Shown piece after piece: positions 1,137-5,789 of a DNA stretch of 5,789 nucleotides. The stretch is from an uncultured Verrucomicrobiales bacterium. GTDB taxonomy: Bacteria > Verrucomicrobiota > Verrucomicrobiae > Limisphaerales > CANJSG01. Every line of letters begins with the position of its first letter. Position 1 is the stretch's first letter. The DNA is taken from contig CAMLMI010000317.1 of assembly GCA_946480965.1 (NCBI GenBank), positions 1 to 5,789 on the forward strand, read 5' to 3'. The notes beneath the pieces were generated by a model. That model saw only the letters and a list, made by a program, of their open reading frames with translations. It had not been told where the DNA came from and ran no database searches. A program made the translations under genes and the position numbers.

Positions 1137-1216
1137 CGCGACGTTCTGGGTCAGCAACGGTGCATGAAAGTTTATCGGCGCATTCGATCCGTCACATTAG
1201 TCCCGCTGCACGACAA

Positions 1217-1245
1217 CGCCGATCCCCCGCACGGGAGGATCGGCG
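1217..1245 (-). terminator. GC-rich hairpin downstream of the SDR gene; possible weak or factor-assisted terminator
   Basis: CGCCGATCC (1217-1225) pairs perfectly with GGATCGGCG (1237-1245). Inside it, CCC (1226-1228) can pair with GGG (1233-1235) around a GCAC loop, with A1236 bulged. It lies 36 nt past the SDR stop codon. In the SDR transcript the U run (six, from 1254 to 1249) comes before the stem instead of after it, and no U tract follows, so it is not a classical intrinsic terminator. It may separate the enzyme cluster from the exported protein gene, or act as an RNA 3'-end stabiliser. The rest of 1137-1280 holds no gene that I can see. Confidence 0.35.
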
Positions 1246-1280
1246 CGCAAAAAACGGTCGGTCGTATGGTCGCAAATTGC

Positions 1281-2039
1281 TTACTGGGCGAGAAATCCGC
1301 CGTCCACCGCGAGGCTCTGTCCGGTGACGAAACTGGCCGGTCCGCCGGCCAGCCACAGCACGGCGGAGGCCACCTCTTCCGCCCGGCCCATGCGGCCGAC
1401 GGGATGGAGCGACGCGAGGTATTTGCCCTGGTCGGTGGCTTCGCCGCCGGTGAAGCGATCCATCATGTCGGTGACGATGGCGGCGGGGGCCACGGCGTTC
1501 ACGCGGATGCCCTGCTTGGCGAATTCCAGCGCGGCGGTCTTGGTCAGGCCTTCCACGGCGTGTTTGGTCGCGATGTAGATGGAGGCTCCGCCCATGCCGA
1601 TGTGGCCGGCCACGCTGGAGGTGTTGATGATGGAACCGCCGCCGGTCTTCAGCATGGCGGGGATCTCGTGCTTCATCGCGGCGAGCACACCCCAGACGTT
1701 GATGTCGAAGACCCTCCGGTAATCGGCCTCGCTCGCTTCGGTCAACGGCCCGAACCACTCGACGCCCGCGTTGTTGAAGGCCACGTCCAATCGTCCAAAC
1801 GCGGCCACGGTCCCGGAAACGAGCGCGGCGAGGTCGGATTCCTTGGCGACATCCGCCGGGATGAACTTTCCGGCGCCGCCGACGGCTTCGATCAACTTGA
1901 CGGTTTCTTGGCCTTCGGCTGCACGTCGGCCGGAGACGACGACCTTGGCGCCTTCTTGGGCGAAGGCGACGGCGGTGGCTCGGCCGATGCCGCTGGTGCC
2001 GCCAGTGATGAGAACGACTTTGTCCTGGAACGATTTCAT
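1281..2039 (-). CDS. SDR-family NADP(H)-type oxidoreductase
   Basis: A 252-residue classical short-chain dehydrogenase/reductase, the usual family length, with a Rossmann fold and cytoplasmic location. All signature residues are present: TGGTSGIG cofactor loop (12-19), D63-V64 near the adenine ring, NNAG (89-92), and the catalytic tetrad N114, S142, Y155 and K159 (Y-I-A-T-K). R38 and R39 after the second strand suggest a preference for NADP(H) over NAD(H). The C-terminal SFVTGQSLAVDGG motif is typical of glucose-1-dehydrogenase/FabG-like members. The substrate cannot be read from the sequence; reduction of an aldehyde, ketone or quinone-derived carbonyl would fit its neighbours. The ATG lies six bases after the VOC stop codon, so the two are almost certainly co-transcribed and probably translationally coupled. 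There is no Shine-Dalgarno sequence before the ATG. Confidence 0.9.
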   Translation of the reverse strand: MKSFQDKVVLITGGTSGIGRATAVAFAQEGAKVVVSGRRAAEGQETVKLIEAVGGAGKFIPADVAKESDLAALVSGTVAAFGRLDVAFNNAGVEWFGPLTEASEADYRRVFDINVWGVLAAMKHEIPAMLKTGGGSIINTSSVAGHIGMGGASIYIATKHAVEGLTKTAALEFAKQGIRVNAVAPAAIVTDMMDRFTGGEATDQGKYLASLHPVGRMGRAEEVASAVLWLAGGPASFVTGQSLAVDGGFLAQ

Positions 2040-2045
2040 GGGGAT

Positions 2046-2558
2046 TCAGTGGTGGTTGGAGACGGTTGAGACGGAAGGGAGGGAAAGGAGCGCGGCCAAA
2101 TCGAGCGGACACGTCGTCATGGCGAGGCCGCCCTGCGCATCGCGCGGCCAATCCGCCTCCGGCCGATCCCAATACAGCTCCACGCCGTTCTGGTCGGGAT
2201 CTCGGAGATACAGCGCCTCGCTCACGCCGTGGTCGCTTGCGCCATCCAGTTCGATGTCGGCGGCGATCAATCGGCGCAGCGCGTCGGCCAATTCAGCGCG
2301 GGTCGGGTAGAGGATCGCCACATGGTAGAGGCCGGTGGTGCCGGGCGGCGGCGGTTGGCCTCCGGCACTCTCCCAGGTATTGAGCGCAATGTGGTGATGG
2401 TAGCCGCCGACGGAAAGGAACACCGCCGAACGGCCGTAGTGTTGCGTCACCTCGAACCCCAGCACGTCGCGATAAAAACCCAGCGCGCGCTCCAGGTCGG
2501 CGACCTTGAGATGCACGTGGCCGATGCGGACACCGGGATGGATCGGGCTGGTTTTCAT
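2046..2558 (-). CDS. VOC-superfamily protein, CatE-like (glyoxalase/extradiol dioxygenase fold)
   Basis: 170 residues containing two beta-alpha-beta-beta-beta modules. The first opens with GHVHLKVADLERALGFYRD (13-31) and includes GYHHHIALNTW (52-62). The second opens with LYHVAIL (77-83) and closes with YLRDPDQNGVELYWDRP (117-133). H16, H79 and E127 sit where the 2-His-1-carboxylate metal site of extradiol dioxygenases lies. The tail (about 134-160, WPRDAQGGLAMTTCPLDL) is characteristic of the subfamily annotated as glyoxalase or catechol-2,3-dioxygenase-like. Bacillus CatE proteins carry two such double modules; this one has a single double module and would have to dimerise or serve another metal-dependent reaction. 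It follows the nitroreductase by 33 nt and precedes the SDR by 6 nt in the same direction. The fold is sure; ring cleavage is plausible but not shown. Confidence 0.88.
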   Translation of the reverse strand: MKTSPIHPGVRIGHVHLKVADLERALGFYRDVLGFEVTQHYGRSAVFLSVGGYHHHIALNTWESAGGQPPPPGTTGLYHVAILYPTRAELADALRRLIAADIELDGASDHGVSEALYLRDPDQNGVELYWDRPEADWPRDAQGGLAMTTCPLDLAALLSLPSVSTVSNHH

Positions 2559-2573
2559 GGCGGCACCAAGGCG

Positions 2574-2589
2574 GGTTCGGAGCCGAACC
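2574..2589. repeat. Perfect 7-bp dyad in the nitroreductase-VOC intergenic gap
   Basis: GGTTCGG (2574-2580) and CCGAACC (2583-2589) are separated by AG and fill half of the 33-nt gap between the nitroreductase stop and the VOC start. In the transcript this folds into a compact hairpin directly before the VOC start codon. It may protect or process the mRNA between cistrons, or tune VOC translation. The same CCGAACC/GGTTCGG heptamer occurs in the dyad in the leader of this operon (3275-3290). Confidence 0.5.
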
Positions 2590-2591
2590 GG

Positions 2592-3245
2592 TCAGATCGT
2601 TTCAACGAGTTGTCCGGTCGAAAAGCGAACTTTCGGCAACGACGCGTATTTGTCCTCGGCCGAGCGGTAGCCCAGCGCGGCGACGACGACGGACGAATAG
2701 CCGGTGCCTTCCAGCTTCAGCAGCTTGTCGTATTCGGCCGGGTTGAAGCCCTCGATCGGCGTGGCGTCCACGCCGAGCAACGCGGCGGTGGTCAACAGTT
2801 CGCCCAACGCGATATAGGCCTGGCGCGCGGCCCAATGCTGGACCACGGCGCTGCGCGGACCTTTCACCAAATCGCCGACCATCATGTCGCGGTAGCCGCC
2901 CAAGGCATCGGCCGGGCCGCCGCGCACGTCGCTGACGCGCTGGATGAACTCGTCCACATGTCGTTCGGTCAACGTGGTCCGGGCGGCGAAGACGACGAGG
3001 TGCGAAGCATCGGTGATCTGCGCCTGGCCCCAGGAATGGGGACGCAGTTCGGCGCGCTTGGCCGCATCGTTCACGACGAGAAACTTGTAGGGCTGGAGGC
3101 CGTAGCTGGAAGGTGCGAGCACGAGCGATTGCTCCAAGGTCTTCCAGACATCGGCCGGGATTTTCTTGGCGGTGTCATAGGCCTTGGTCGCATAGCGCCA
3201 ATTGAGGGCTTCGACGACGGTTTGCTGGGAGATGGTCGTGGACAT
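2592..3245 (-). CDS. NfsB-type FMN-dependent nitroreductase / quinone reductase
   Basis: 217 residues from the ATG at 3245, the same length as E. coli NfsB, with family motifs in register. Residues 17-24 (RYATKAYD) form the N-terminal FMN-phosphate contact. APSSYGLQPYKF (44-55) is the flavin-binding helix start, PIEGF (163-167) includes the conserved Glu165, and LPKVRF (203-208) holds Lys205 and Arg207, both known FMN ligands in NfsB. The enzyme should be a cytoplasmic homodimer that takes electrons from NAD(P)H to FMN and reduces nitroaromatics, quinones or flavins in two-electron steps. An upstream in-frame ATG at 3335 would add a 30-residue low-complexity leader. I reject it because the family starts here and because the candidate sigma-54 start site (about 3295) lies inside that extension. 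It is first in the cluster with the VOC and SDR genes and divergent from the sigma-54 activator. No Shine-Dalgarno sequence is visible. Confidence 0.92.
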   Translation of the reverse strand: MSTTISQQTVVEALNWRYATKAYDTAKKIPADVWKTLEQSLVLAPSSYGLQPYKFLVVNDAAKRAELRPHSWGQAQITDASHLVVFAARTTLTERHVDEFIQRVSDVRGGPADALGGYRDMMVGDLVKGPRSAVVQHWAARQAYIALGELLTTAALLGVDATPIEGFNPAEYDKLLKLEGTGYSSVVVAALGYRSAEDKYASLPKVRFSTGQLVETI

Positions 3246-3274
3246 AAACGTGGGATTTCGTGGTTTTGTGTATT

Positions 3275-3290
3275 GGCCGAAGGTTCGGCC
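3275..3290. promoter_or_regulatory. Perfect dyad in the nitroreductase leader (RNA hairpin or operator)
   Basis: GGCCGAA (3275-3281) and TTCGGCC (3284-3290) form a perfect inverted repeat around GG. If the sigma-54 promoter at 3307-3322 is real, it occupies about +6 to +21 of the nitroreductase transcript, so it would form a 5'-terminal hairpin with an ACCU-type loop. Such a structure could stabilise the mRNA; as DNA it could be an operator just after the start site. I cannot choose between these. Confidence 0.5.
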
Positions 3291-3306
3291 GGTTGTCCTC
3301 CTGAGT

Positions 3307-3322
3307 GCTGCTCCCGTGCCAA
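3307..3322 (-). promoter_or_regulatory. Candidate sigma-54 (-24/-12) promoter for the nitroreductase-VOC-SDR cluster
   Basis: Read on the minus strand, TTGGCACG (3322-3315) matches the -24 consensus exactly. GGAG follows, then CAGCA (3310-3306), against the -12 consensus TTGCA. The invariant GG and GC are exactly ten bases apart, as sigma-54 requires; the deviation is CA in place of TT just before the GC. With C3307 at -12, transcription would start near 3295, giving a 50-nt leader before the ATG at 3245. The adjacent divergent gene encodes a sigma-54 activator with GAFTGA, which strongly supports the call. Confidence 0.65.
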
Positions 3323-3416
3323 GGGATCGTTCCATTCCTCTGCTTCCGGCCTAACTCATTGATTCAAAGAGCACTGACTCACAATCCAACCAACCCACAT
3401 CCGTCATCGCCCATTC

Positions 3417-3430
3417 CACGAAACCTCGTG
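3417..3430. promoter_or_regulatory. Candidate activator (enhancer) site 1
   Basis: CACGA (3417-3421) and TCGTG (3426-3430) form a perfect dyad around AACC. Its 12-bp core ACGAAACCTCGT recurs exactly 39 bp away in site 2, including the non-palindromic AACC spacer. The centre lies about 128 bp upstream of the predicted sigma-54 start site, a normal distance for enhancer-binding proteins. A further CACGA at 3435-3439 pairs with TCGTG as well, giving three alternating half-sites at 9-bp steps. Confidence 0.6.
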
Positions 3431-3454
3431 AAACCACGACAACACCCCGTCGCC

Positions 3455-3470
3455 CAACGAAACCTCGTTG
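3455..3470. promoter_or_regulatory. Candidate activator (enhancer) site 2
   Basis: CAACGA (3455-3460) and TCGTTG (3465-3470) form a perfect 6-bp dyad around AACC and share ACGAAACCTCGT with site 1. The centre is about 167 bp upstream of the predicted nitroreductase start site. It ends only 31 bp before the activator's ATG, so binding here could also repress the activator's own promoter. No clear promoter for the activator was identified. Confidence 0.6.
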
Positions 3471-3501
3471 CGCCGTTTCGGTTCTGGCGCACTGTCGGTC
3501 C

Positions 3502-5010
3502 ATGCCGAAAAACGATCCGATGACGGTTGATCCGCTCAGCGCCAACGCGCTCTTCACCCTGTCCGAAGTGGAGATGTTGCGCCTGAACCAGACCGCGTTG
3601 ACCCAACTGCTCCAGCGCCGCGACGAGTTCTTCCGCAACGTCCTCGACAGCCTGCCGGTCGGCCTCCTCATCACCAATGCCGAGAGCAAGATCGTCTTCG
3701 CCAACGAGCCGCTCCAGGAAATGACCGGCTACAACCGGGACGAACTGCTCGGCCAGACCAGCTACAAGATGCTCCTGCCGCCCAAGGAATGGCCGATCAT
3801 GGAGCAACGCTTGCAGCAACGCCTCGAAGGCAAGTGCGAGGGCTACGAACACGAGATCCGCCGCAAGGACGGTTCCACCCATTGGGTCCATGTGAAGGCC
3901 GCGCCCTACTACAACGCCCAGGGCGACATCGCCGGGACCATCGGGGCCTTGAGTTGCTTGGAACGGCAGAAGGTCTTGGAGCGCGAGAACGAATATCTCC
4001 GCGACGAGGTCGGCCAGTCGGACATCTGCAACATCGTCGGTAACAGCCTGCCGTTGGCCAAGGTGCTGGAGCAGATCCGCATGGTCGCCCCAACCGACGC
4101 CACGGTCTTGATCCAGGGCGAATCCGGCACCGGCAAGGAACTCGTCGCCCAAGCCATCCACCAGGAAAGCAAGCGCCGCGAAAAGACACTCGTCCGCGTG
4201 AACTGCGCGAGCATTCCCAAGGAGCTGTTCGAGTCCGAGTTCTTCGGCCACGTGAAGGGCGCGTTCACCGGCGCGATCCGCGACCGCGTGGGCCGCTTCG
4301 AGCTGGCCGATGGCGGCACGCTCTTCCTCGACGAGCTCGGCGAGATCCCGCTGGAGCTCCAGAGCAAGCTGCTGCGTGTCTTGCAGGAGGGGCAGTTCGA
4401 GAAGCTCGGCGAGGAACGCACGCGCACCGTGAACGTCCGCGTCATCGCCGCGACCAATCGCGATCTCCGCATGGAGGTGAAGGCCGGTCGTTTCCGCCAG
4501 GATCTCTACTATCGGCTGAGCGTCTTCCCCGTCGAACTGCCGCCGCTGCGCGAGCGCCGCGAAGACATCCGCCAGTTGGCCGAACATTTCCTGAAAGCCT
4601 CCGCCAAACGCATGGGCCTGCCCGTGCCGCGCCTGAGCGCCGAGAACATCCGCGACCTCGAAGCCTACGACTGGCCCGGCAACGTGCGCGAACTCCAGAA
4701 CGTGATCGAACGCGCCGTCATCCTCGCGCGCGGCGGAGACCTGCGCTTCCACCTCGAAGCCGTAGAACCCGAACTGGTCGCGCCCGTCGTGCGCGAAGTC
4801 TCCCCTGCCCCTCTGTCTTCCCGCAGTGAAAGCCCCAGCCGCTTGGATCTCGCCGGATTGAAGGATCGCGAACGCGCGATGATCGAAGAAGCCCTCCAGC
4901 GTTCCCACGGCCGCATCTACGGCCCCGGCGGCGCCGCCGCGCTCCTCGGCCTCAAACCCACGACCCTCGCCTCGAAGATCAAGAAGCTGGGATTGAACGG
5001 GCAGAAATGA
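3502..5010 (+). CDS. PAS-containing sigma-54-dependent transcriptional activator (FhlA/NorR-like architecture)
   Basis: A 502-residue enhancer-binding protein. Residues about 40-155 form a PAS domain ([20 protein letters not shown], and later [12 protein letters not shown]), followed by a short charged coiled linker (about 153-170). The AAA+ domain has Walker A GESGTGKE (206-213), the sigma-54 contact loop GAFTGA (253-258, intact), Walker B GGTLFLDE (271-278), [20 protein letters not shown], and the [18 protein letters not shown] segment. The C-terminus (about 470-499) is a Fis-type HTH resembling that of FhlA-like regulators. There is no receiver domain, so it is not a phosphorelay response regulator; a small molecule or redox signal at the PAS domain is more likely, but no cofactor residue can be named. 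It should oligomerise on the dyads at 3417-3470 and use ATP to open sigma-54 promoters. It is divergent from the nitroreductase cluster, its probable target. The first in-frame ATG lacks a Shine-Dalgarno sequence; M7 is an alternative start. Confidence 0.93.
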
Positions 5011-5042
5011 AAAAGGCCGGAACCGATCGTTCGGTTCCGGCC
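5010..5042 (-). terminator. Intrinsic terminator for the copper-domain gene, hairpin shared with the convergent activator gene
   Basis: GGCCGGAACCGA (5015-5026) pairs perfectly over 12 bp with TCGGTTCCGGCC (5031-5042), with a four-base loop. On the minus strand the stem is followed by five T (5014-5010), so it is a textbook intrinsic terminator 20 nt past the stop codon of the gene at 5063-5789. The T tract overlaps the last base of the activator's TGA. On the plus strand the stem starts four bases after that stop but no T tract follows, so it would work less well in that direction. Confidence 0.85.
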
Positions 5043-5062
5043 GTGATTAGCCATTCTGCGGC

Positions 5063-5789
5063 TCACTCGAAACCGTTGGCCTTGTGCTCGTGGCCGGCTC
5101 CGGCGGTGGGCACGGGGGCTTGCGGGTTCTTCTGGAGGTAGTCGTCCACGTCGGTCGTGACCACGAGGCGACCCCACATGGATTGGTGATGGCCGGGGAA
5201 GGTGCAGACGTATTCGTAGTCTCCGGGTGTGGTCGGGGCGGTGAGTTTTAGGGTTTCGCGCTGGCCGCCCTCGATGAGCTTGGTGGCGGCAAGCACGGCG
5301 CTGCTCCCCGGAACATAGGGACGGCCGGAGCGGTCCAGACGATCGGGCGGCATCTGCGCGGCGGCGGTGCCGACGGCGTCGCGGGTGCCGGGCTTCACCA
5401 CGACGAGGTTGTGCGGCATGAAGTCGTCGTTGATCAGGATGATCTCAAACGGATTTCCGGCCTCCACCACGAGGCGCGGCGTATCGTAGCGCATCTGCTC
5501 GCGCACGGTGCGGACGACGAATACGGCGACGCGGTAGTCCTTCAATTCCTTGCGCGCGGCGGCGGCTTCAGCCGACGGCAAAAGCCCGGCCAGGTCGCCC
5601 GCCACCTGCACGGTCTCGATGTAATCCTGCGACGTGCGGTCGGCGACGGGAATGGTCTTGGCCCACGCCAGCAGCCCCTTCACCGCCGTGGCGGCTTCGG
5701 CCTTCGGCCAGGCGTCGTGCGGCAAGGTCCGCAGACCCTGCGCGGCGGCGGCGACGGATTCGCCCTTCGCGATCAATCCGGCCAACGCG
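5063..5789 (-). CDS. C-terminal part of a protein ending in an azurin/auracyanin-type copper domain (5' end outside the window)
   Basis: The frame is open to the right edge, so about 242 residues of a longer protein are visible; the TTG near 5785 is not a convincing start. The first 85 or so residues are alanine-rich and helical. The final 130 or so form a cupredoxin with a complete type 1 copper site: His in FMPHN (codon 5411-5413), then Cys, His and Met in YVCTFPGHHQSMWG (codons 5204-5206, 5189-5191, 5177-5179). The Cys+5 His and Cys+9 Met spacing equals azurin. The domain should carry single electrons in the periplasm. The helical part followed by VRTVREQMRYDTPRLVVEAG resembles the C-terminus of large PVC-group proteins that join dehydrogenase-like, HEAT-like, heme c and cupredoxin domains. 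That identification is recall, and none of the upstream domains can be seen. The tail ends in a His-containing GHEHKANGFE. Confidence 0.85.
   Translation of the reverse strand, partial: ALAGLIAKGESVAAAAQGLRTLPHDAWPKAEAATAVKGLLAWAKTIPVADRTSQDYIETVQVAGDLAGLLPSAEAAAARKELKDYRVAVFVVRTVREQMRYDTPRLVVEAGNPFEIILINDDFMPHNLVVVKPGTRDAVGTAAAQMPPDRLDRSGRPYVPGSSAVLAATKLIEGGQRETLKLTAPTTPGDYEYVCTFPGHHQSMWGRLVVTTDVDDYLQKNPQAPVPTAGAGHEHKANGFE

Follow-up and report, generated by a model that had tools for sequence, protein, structure and literature searches.

A conserved sigma-54-type promoter, a neighbouring activator gene and a likely enhancer array precede changing redox/detoxification-type operons

The window analysed here, a stretch of 5,789 nucleotides from an uncultured Verrucomicrobiales bacterium, very probably carries a real, conserved sigma-54 promoter together with an activator encoded next to it and a likely array of enhancer sites. 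The promoter, TTGGCACG-GGAG-CA-GC, lies on the minus strand at 3307-3322 with the -24 GG at 3320-3319 and the -12 GC at 3308-3307. It precedes three minus-strand genes separated by short gaps, encoding an NfsB-like nitroreductase (2592-3245; Pfam Nitroreductase; PRK11053 at 142.3 bits, below the cut-off of 227), a VOC/glyoxalase-fold protein (2046-2558; Pfam Glyoxalase) and a short-chain dehydrogenase/reductase (SDR; 1281-2039; Pfam adh_short_C2). This operon (3245-1281) and the plus-strand activator gene (3502-5010) are divergent and have a 256-bp control region in common. Several features are established at the level of sequence by comparison with related loci: a promoter element on a defined strand, an array of repeats, their linkage to the activator, turnover among the operon genes and, in the activator, a conserved cysteine.

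The promoter element in the window and in related loci

Direct reading of the minus strand from 3322 to 3307 gave TTGGCACGGGAGCAGC. The initial annotation had proposed an exact -24 element with a GC at the ten-base spacing from GG, about 60 bp before the nitroreductase ATG and with a start near 3295, and the sequence bears this out. TTGGCACG is an exact match to YTGGCACG, the GG-to-GC spacing is ten bases as in TTGGCACG-N6-GC, and 62 nt separate the -12 C from the ATG at 3245. Sigma-54 promoters usually start transcription about 12 nt past the -12 C; the predicted minus-strand start is therefore at 3295. The -12 box reads CAGCA, compared with the consensus TTGCW. A longer nitroreductase frame from 3335 was rejected because three homologues have their start close to the residue encoded at 3245. 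Also rejected, as an operator or leader element, was the palindrome GGCCGAAGGTTCGGCC (3275-3290), which has no counterpart in the dyad lists of the relatives. The stretch from 1150 to 5100 yielded no sigma-70-type promoter.

Statistics within the window are of limited reach. TGGCAYR-N6-GC matched once against 0.27 expected, with at least one match in 49 of 200 shuffles. The consensus TGGCAC-N5-TTGC, with two mismatches allowed, matched five times in the whole window against 6.03 expected, so this test was uninformative. Shuffling the 256-bp intergenic region 5000 times produced TTGGCACG-N6-GC on the operon strand in 2 rounds and TGGCAY-N7-GC in 47. The window by itself thus suggests a promoter without establishing one, its statistics being too weak to decide; the deciding evidence is the sequence conservation across related loci.

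These loci came from several searches. Eighty loci, headed by a Limisphaerales MAG (L001), were retained from a scan of named genomes. Close activator relatives were present in 23 of 293 genomes around L001 (1e-130), in 2 of 387 genomes drawn from the phylum and in 23 of 320 genomes of the order (both at 1e-150), the search sets overlapping. The main set comprised the window and 20 relatives, 21 activator loci in all for which upstream DNA was available. Of the 24 places matched at 1e-130, four were excluded before counting, two because their contigs end too soon upstream (G219/L105 and G071/L109) and two because they are alignable in the AAA+ and HTH part only (G167:C48/L129 and G210/L130); L012 was excluded for a broken frame. 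One of the activator alignments omits L125, whose start is uncertain; the starts of L118 and L125 are estimates, and the L202 frame, broken near residue 430, was taken as is. Three further loci came from searches made after the promoter pattern was fixed. Two of them, L201 and L202, are near-copies of L124, so 20 loci with a promoter element amount to about 18 independent ones. At least 56 loci of distant activators were used only for comparing the -12 boxes of other genes and for distant rows at Cys152. An RpoN DNA-binding domain was detected in 19 of the 20 relatives, in G031 as a 22-position end fragment only; none was detected in G122 (L113).

The activator is accompanied by a divergent redox/detoxification-type operon in 17 of the 21 loci. 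The initial annotation had named an absence of -24/-12 conservation in genomes retaining the gene pair as the outcome that would speak against the promoter; the loci gave the opposite picture. All 17 operon-bearing loci carry TGGCAY-N7-GC on the operon strand, no more than 330 nt from the activator start (200 rounds of shuffling: mean 0.165, maximum 3), and 0/17 carry it on the opposite strand. TGGCAC alone accounts for 15/17, the pattern having been widened to TGGCAY after TGGCAT was seen in L120 and L125. The four activators that lack such an operon also lack the element beside them on the operon strand; at L112-L114 the activator follows a gene on its own strand, and at L126 the divergent gene encodes ribosomal protein L28. 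The element was also present in all three later-found loci, bringing the total to 20/20 loci with such an operon, window included. When the 20 sites were aligned, most flanking positions carried less than 0.3 bit, indicating that conservation of the site goes beyond mere descent. Positions outside the demands of the pattern match the sigma-54 consensus, with G after TGGCAC in 16/20 and A after GC in 15/20 sites; C follows TGGCA in 18/20.

The -12 GC, demanded by the pattern, is found in 20/20 sites. The two bases before it are TT in one site, CA in five, TA in four, CC in four, TC in two and four other pairs once each; the second of them is A in 11/20. By comparison, among 23 sites of this kind beside other genes in the retrieved loci, 14 have TT (four sites of the activator-operon promoter family excluded). 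CA in place of TT, regarded in the initial annotation as the weak point of the promoter, is indeed present in the window but not peculiar to that copy; with TT in just 1/20 sites, the seemingly weak -12 box is a family trait. Genome-wide counts of the promoter pattern were not above the reversed control, and sites outside frames of at least 80 codons made up 12 of 23 of the TT type and 6 of 13 of the YAGC type (four from the activator-operon locus excluded), figures that fit a non-TT -12 box peculiar to the family as well as one general in the lineage. The L125 site departs from TGGCAYG, and its distance to the annotated pirin ATG is 13 nt, in a locus with an uncertain activator start. Several copies of GACAAAGGGACAGGCA lie around 5850-5960 of the oriented L125 locus, immediately before and within the presumed start of the activator frame.

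The activator and the repeat array

The divergent neighbour (3502-5010, plus strand) was correctly recognised from the outset as a sigma-54 activator. Its Pfam domains are Sigma54_activat, PAS and HTH_8. The AAA+ domain (PF00158, 243.9 bits) contains a Walker A motif and GAFTGA at residues 253-258, and the Fis-type HTH scored 30.7 bits (PF02954, cut-off 22). The NorR model PRK05022 gave the top NCBIfam score, 387.1 bits, under its cut-off of 476. No GAF domain appeared in the Pfam scan of the activator, in which PAS matched instead.

Cys152, at the end of the PAS domain, is kept in 21/21 aligned activators and in the three later ones. This position holds Ser in L105 and Glu in L109, both outside the main set, and Cys in L012. 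A counterpart was found in 0/20 rows of other, more distant activators, a weak control because many have no PAS domain there. Cys235 is also kept in 21/21 aligned activators and is part of a motif common to such ATPases. Cys152 is accordingly a candidate for signal reception, judging from the alignment, and sensing of electrophiles or redox state through it is a tentative proposal. Solved structures match the activator from about residue 152 onward only, and so do not show its PAS part.

The DNA between the promoter and the activator gene contains repeated CGTTG-type sites, which likely form a multi-site enhancer, as their number and spacing suggest. Candidate site 1, CACGAAACCTCGTG (3417-3430), has the 12-mer ACGAAACCTCGT in common with candidate site 3, CAACGAAACCTCGTTG (3455-3470), a dyad of the type AACG-N6-CGTT. 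The distance from CACGAAACCTCGTG to CAACGAAACCTCGTTG is 39 bp, perhaps with a weak third site in between: candidate site 2 (3433-3452, with CGTCG at 3448-3452, one mismatch to CGTTG) was placed by eye, by analogy with the CGTTG spacing of the relatives. Across 20 promoter-activator regions, CGTTG occurs in 42 copies against a shuffle mean of 5.95 (maximum 12) and CAACG in 23 against 5.98 (maximum 16). Eighteen of 30 CGTTG pairs are 17-24 bp apart; random placement gave a mean of 2.6, and none of 5000 rounds reached 18. The exact AACG-N6-CGTT dyad is present in 13/17 loci (shuffle mean 0.18). It is missing from the other four and from the intergenic DNA of the three later loci, where CGTTG copies do occur. 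None of 36 sigma-54-like sites from other parts of the genomes of the 20 relatives had the dyad within 400 nt. CAACG-N6-CGTTGCG had a single match in each of two genomes, one of them elsewhere in G167.

Exchange of the divergent enzyme genes

The first divergent gene encodes a nitroreductase in the window, L001, L123 and L200, a pirin in L002, L119, L122, L124, L125, L201 and L202, an SDR in L003, L121, L127 and L128, and DoxX in L115-L118 and L120. Other operon members among the loci encode VOC proteins, thioredoxin, DUF5069 and YceI. The nitroreductase-VOC-SDR operon put forward in the initial annotation as the target holds for the window; the wider target set is not specifically nitroreductase and varies among redox/detoxification-type enzymes. 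From their families, these enzymes may act against electrophiles or oxidants. On a tree of 24 activators (13 of 21 inner branches well supported), the first-gene label, with five states (the four genes and 'none'), required 10 changes. The least possible number is 4 and shuffled labels gave 14.7, pointing to some clustering. The first gene is thus swapped while the control DNA stays, so that a single control block precedes an exchangeable set of enzymes.

Several gene arrangements were seen along the way. DUF5069 lies between the DoxX and pirin genes in L115 (4703-5155) and L120 (4687-5178) and after DoxX in L117 (284-736). A VOC domain is fused to thioredoxin in L003 (3003-3872), and a separate thioredoxin gene adjoins a VOC gene in L121 (4581-4943).

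Proposed mechanism, rival readings and known systems

We propose that sigma-54 polymerase would wait at TTGGCACG-N6-GC (3322-3307) and that the activator would bind the CAACG-N6-CGTTG-type array at 3417-3470, which lies some 95-150 bp upstream of the -24 box. The PAS domain would receive a signal, possibly electrophile or redox stress and perhaps through Cys152, after which the GAFTGA loop of the AAA+ domain would be used to open the promoter. The activator gene may also be autoregulated, since the array sites are no more than 90 bp away from its ATG. This control block recurs, combined with varying enzyme genes, in relatives grouped around the Limisphaerales genome. Put more generally, and as a speculative view, this would be a one-component PAS activator forming the sigma-54 counterpart of thiol-based electrophile sensors. 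It would read an electrophile or oxidant via one conserved Cys between PAS and AAA+, and run an exchangeable detoxification cassette through an enhancer of several sites and through promoters that form a family distinguished by a YAGC-type -12 box.

It is barely credible that TGGCAC...GC is a chance match. The ready occurrence of the pattern in shuffled windows and the missing -12 TT would allow it, but the element's presence on the proper strand in every operon-bearing locus, amid little-conserved flanks, strongly contradicts it. A real promoter served by another sigma-54 activator, with the neighbour adjacent by happenstance, is very improbable. The genomes do appear to carry many such ATPases (a first look gave 26 to 105 candidates in the 23 matching genomes), and the L112-L114 activators can exist apart from such an operon; against this, 20 loci keep the element and the array next to the activator even as the operon genes vary.

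A role of the CGTTG array for another regulator, or for activator autoregulation only, rather than as operon enhancer, also seems improbable. Most CGTTG copies lie at -18 to -90 of the activator start, and L126 retains the dyad beside its divergent L28 gene, as such a role would have it. However, promoter element and array are jointly absent beside L112-L114, the nearest activators, which must therefore act elsewhere. Nor did another regulator recur among the divergent genes scanned in these partly annotated loci, where L001 has a TetR-type gene. We thus favour the local activator acting on the promoter from the array.

Among known systems, one of the closest is NorR-norVW of E. coli, where a sigma-54 activator adjoins its target detoxification operon and the intergenic region holds three essential enhancer sites (PMC2941729). 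NorR differs in sensing nitric oxide through a regulatory GAF domain (PMC2941729), whereas the window activator has a PAS domain with a conserved Cys. The norVW genes are unlike the window operon, and genes of window-type operons vary between species. The window system would thus be NorR-norVW-like in kind and yet, by its sub-cut-off PRK05022 score and its PAS in place of GAF, is not NorR.

MarR, NemR and HxlR/DUF24 regulators control nitroreductase, pirin or DoxX-type genes from sigma-70-type promoters, often as repressors. Their target enzymes are of similar kinds, but the window has an AAA+ activator and a sigma-54 promoter. The aoxC gene of Herminiimonas arsenicoxydans, for a putative nitroreductase, is on the same transcript as aoxAB. 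One report describes a sigma-54 promoter, TGGCACGCAGTTTGC, before aoxAB, and arsenite induction of AoxC with the sigma-54-linked aox genes (PMC2848651). The aox genes are thus alike in pairing a sigma-54 promoter with a co-induced putative nitroreductase, and differ in their two-component AoxS/AoxR, arsenite oxidase payload and TTGC in the -12 box. The earlier view that sigma-54 control of a nitroreductase cluster is unusual is therefore fair, although AoxC provides a precedent. Nor is sigma-54 control of stress or detoxification genes new per se, as NorR and the cyanate lyase and peroxiredoxin groups (PMC12316311) illustrate.

No description of the activator-array-promoter module was found in the open literature searched. 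With this module, a little-studied group gains a sigma-54 switch family whose targets look like redox/detoxification enzymes; its new feature would be a constant control block with changing enzymes. Such a block gives hints to the function of poorly known partners, for example DUF5069, and the system lends itself to a clear test of sensing via one cysteine by a sigma-54 activator.

Elsewhere in the window, a 379-aa minus-strand frame without a Pfam match (18-1157) lies downstream of the operon, and a terminator-like hairpin followed by T on the minus strand (5015-5042) lies between the activator and a cupredoxin-domain gene. Three paralogous activators, alignable to that of the window in AAA+/HTH only (L129, L130 and L131, the last being G001:C146), also have TGGCAY-N7-GC upstream. 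CAACG/CGTTG dyads are present at L129 and L130, and the divergent gene of L130 belongs to the carboxymuconolactone decarboxylase family.
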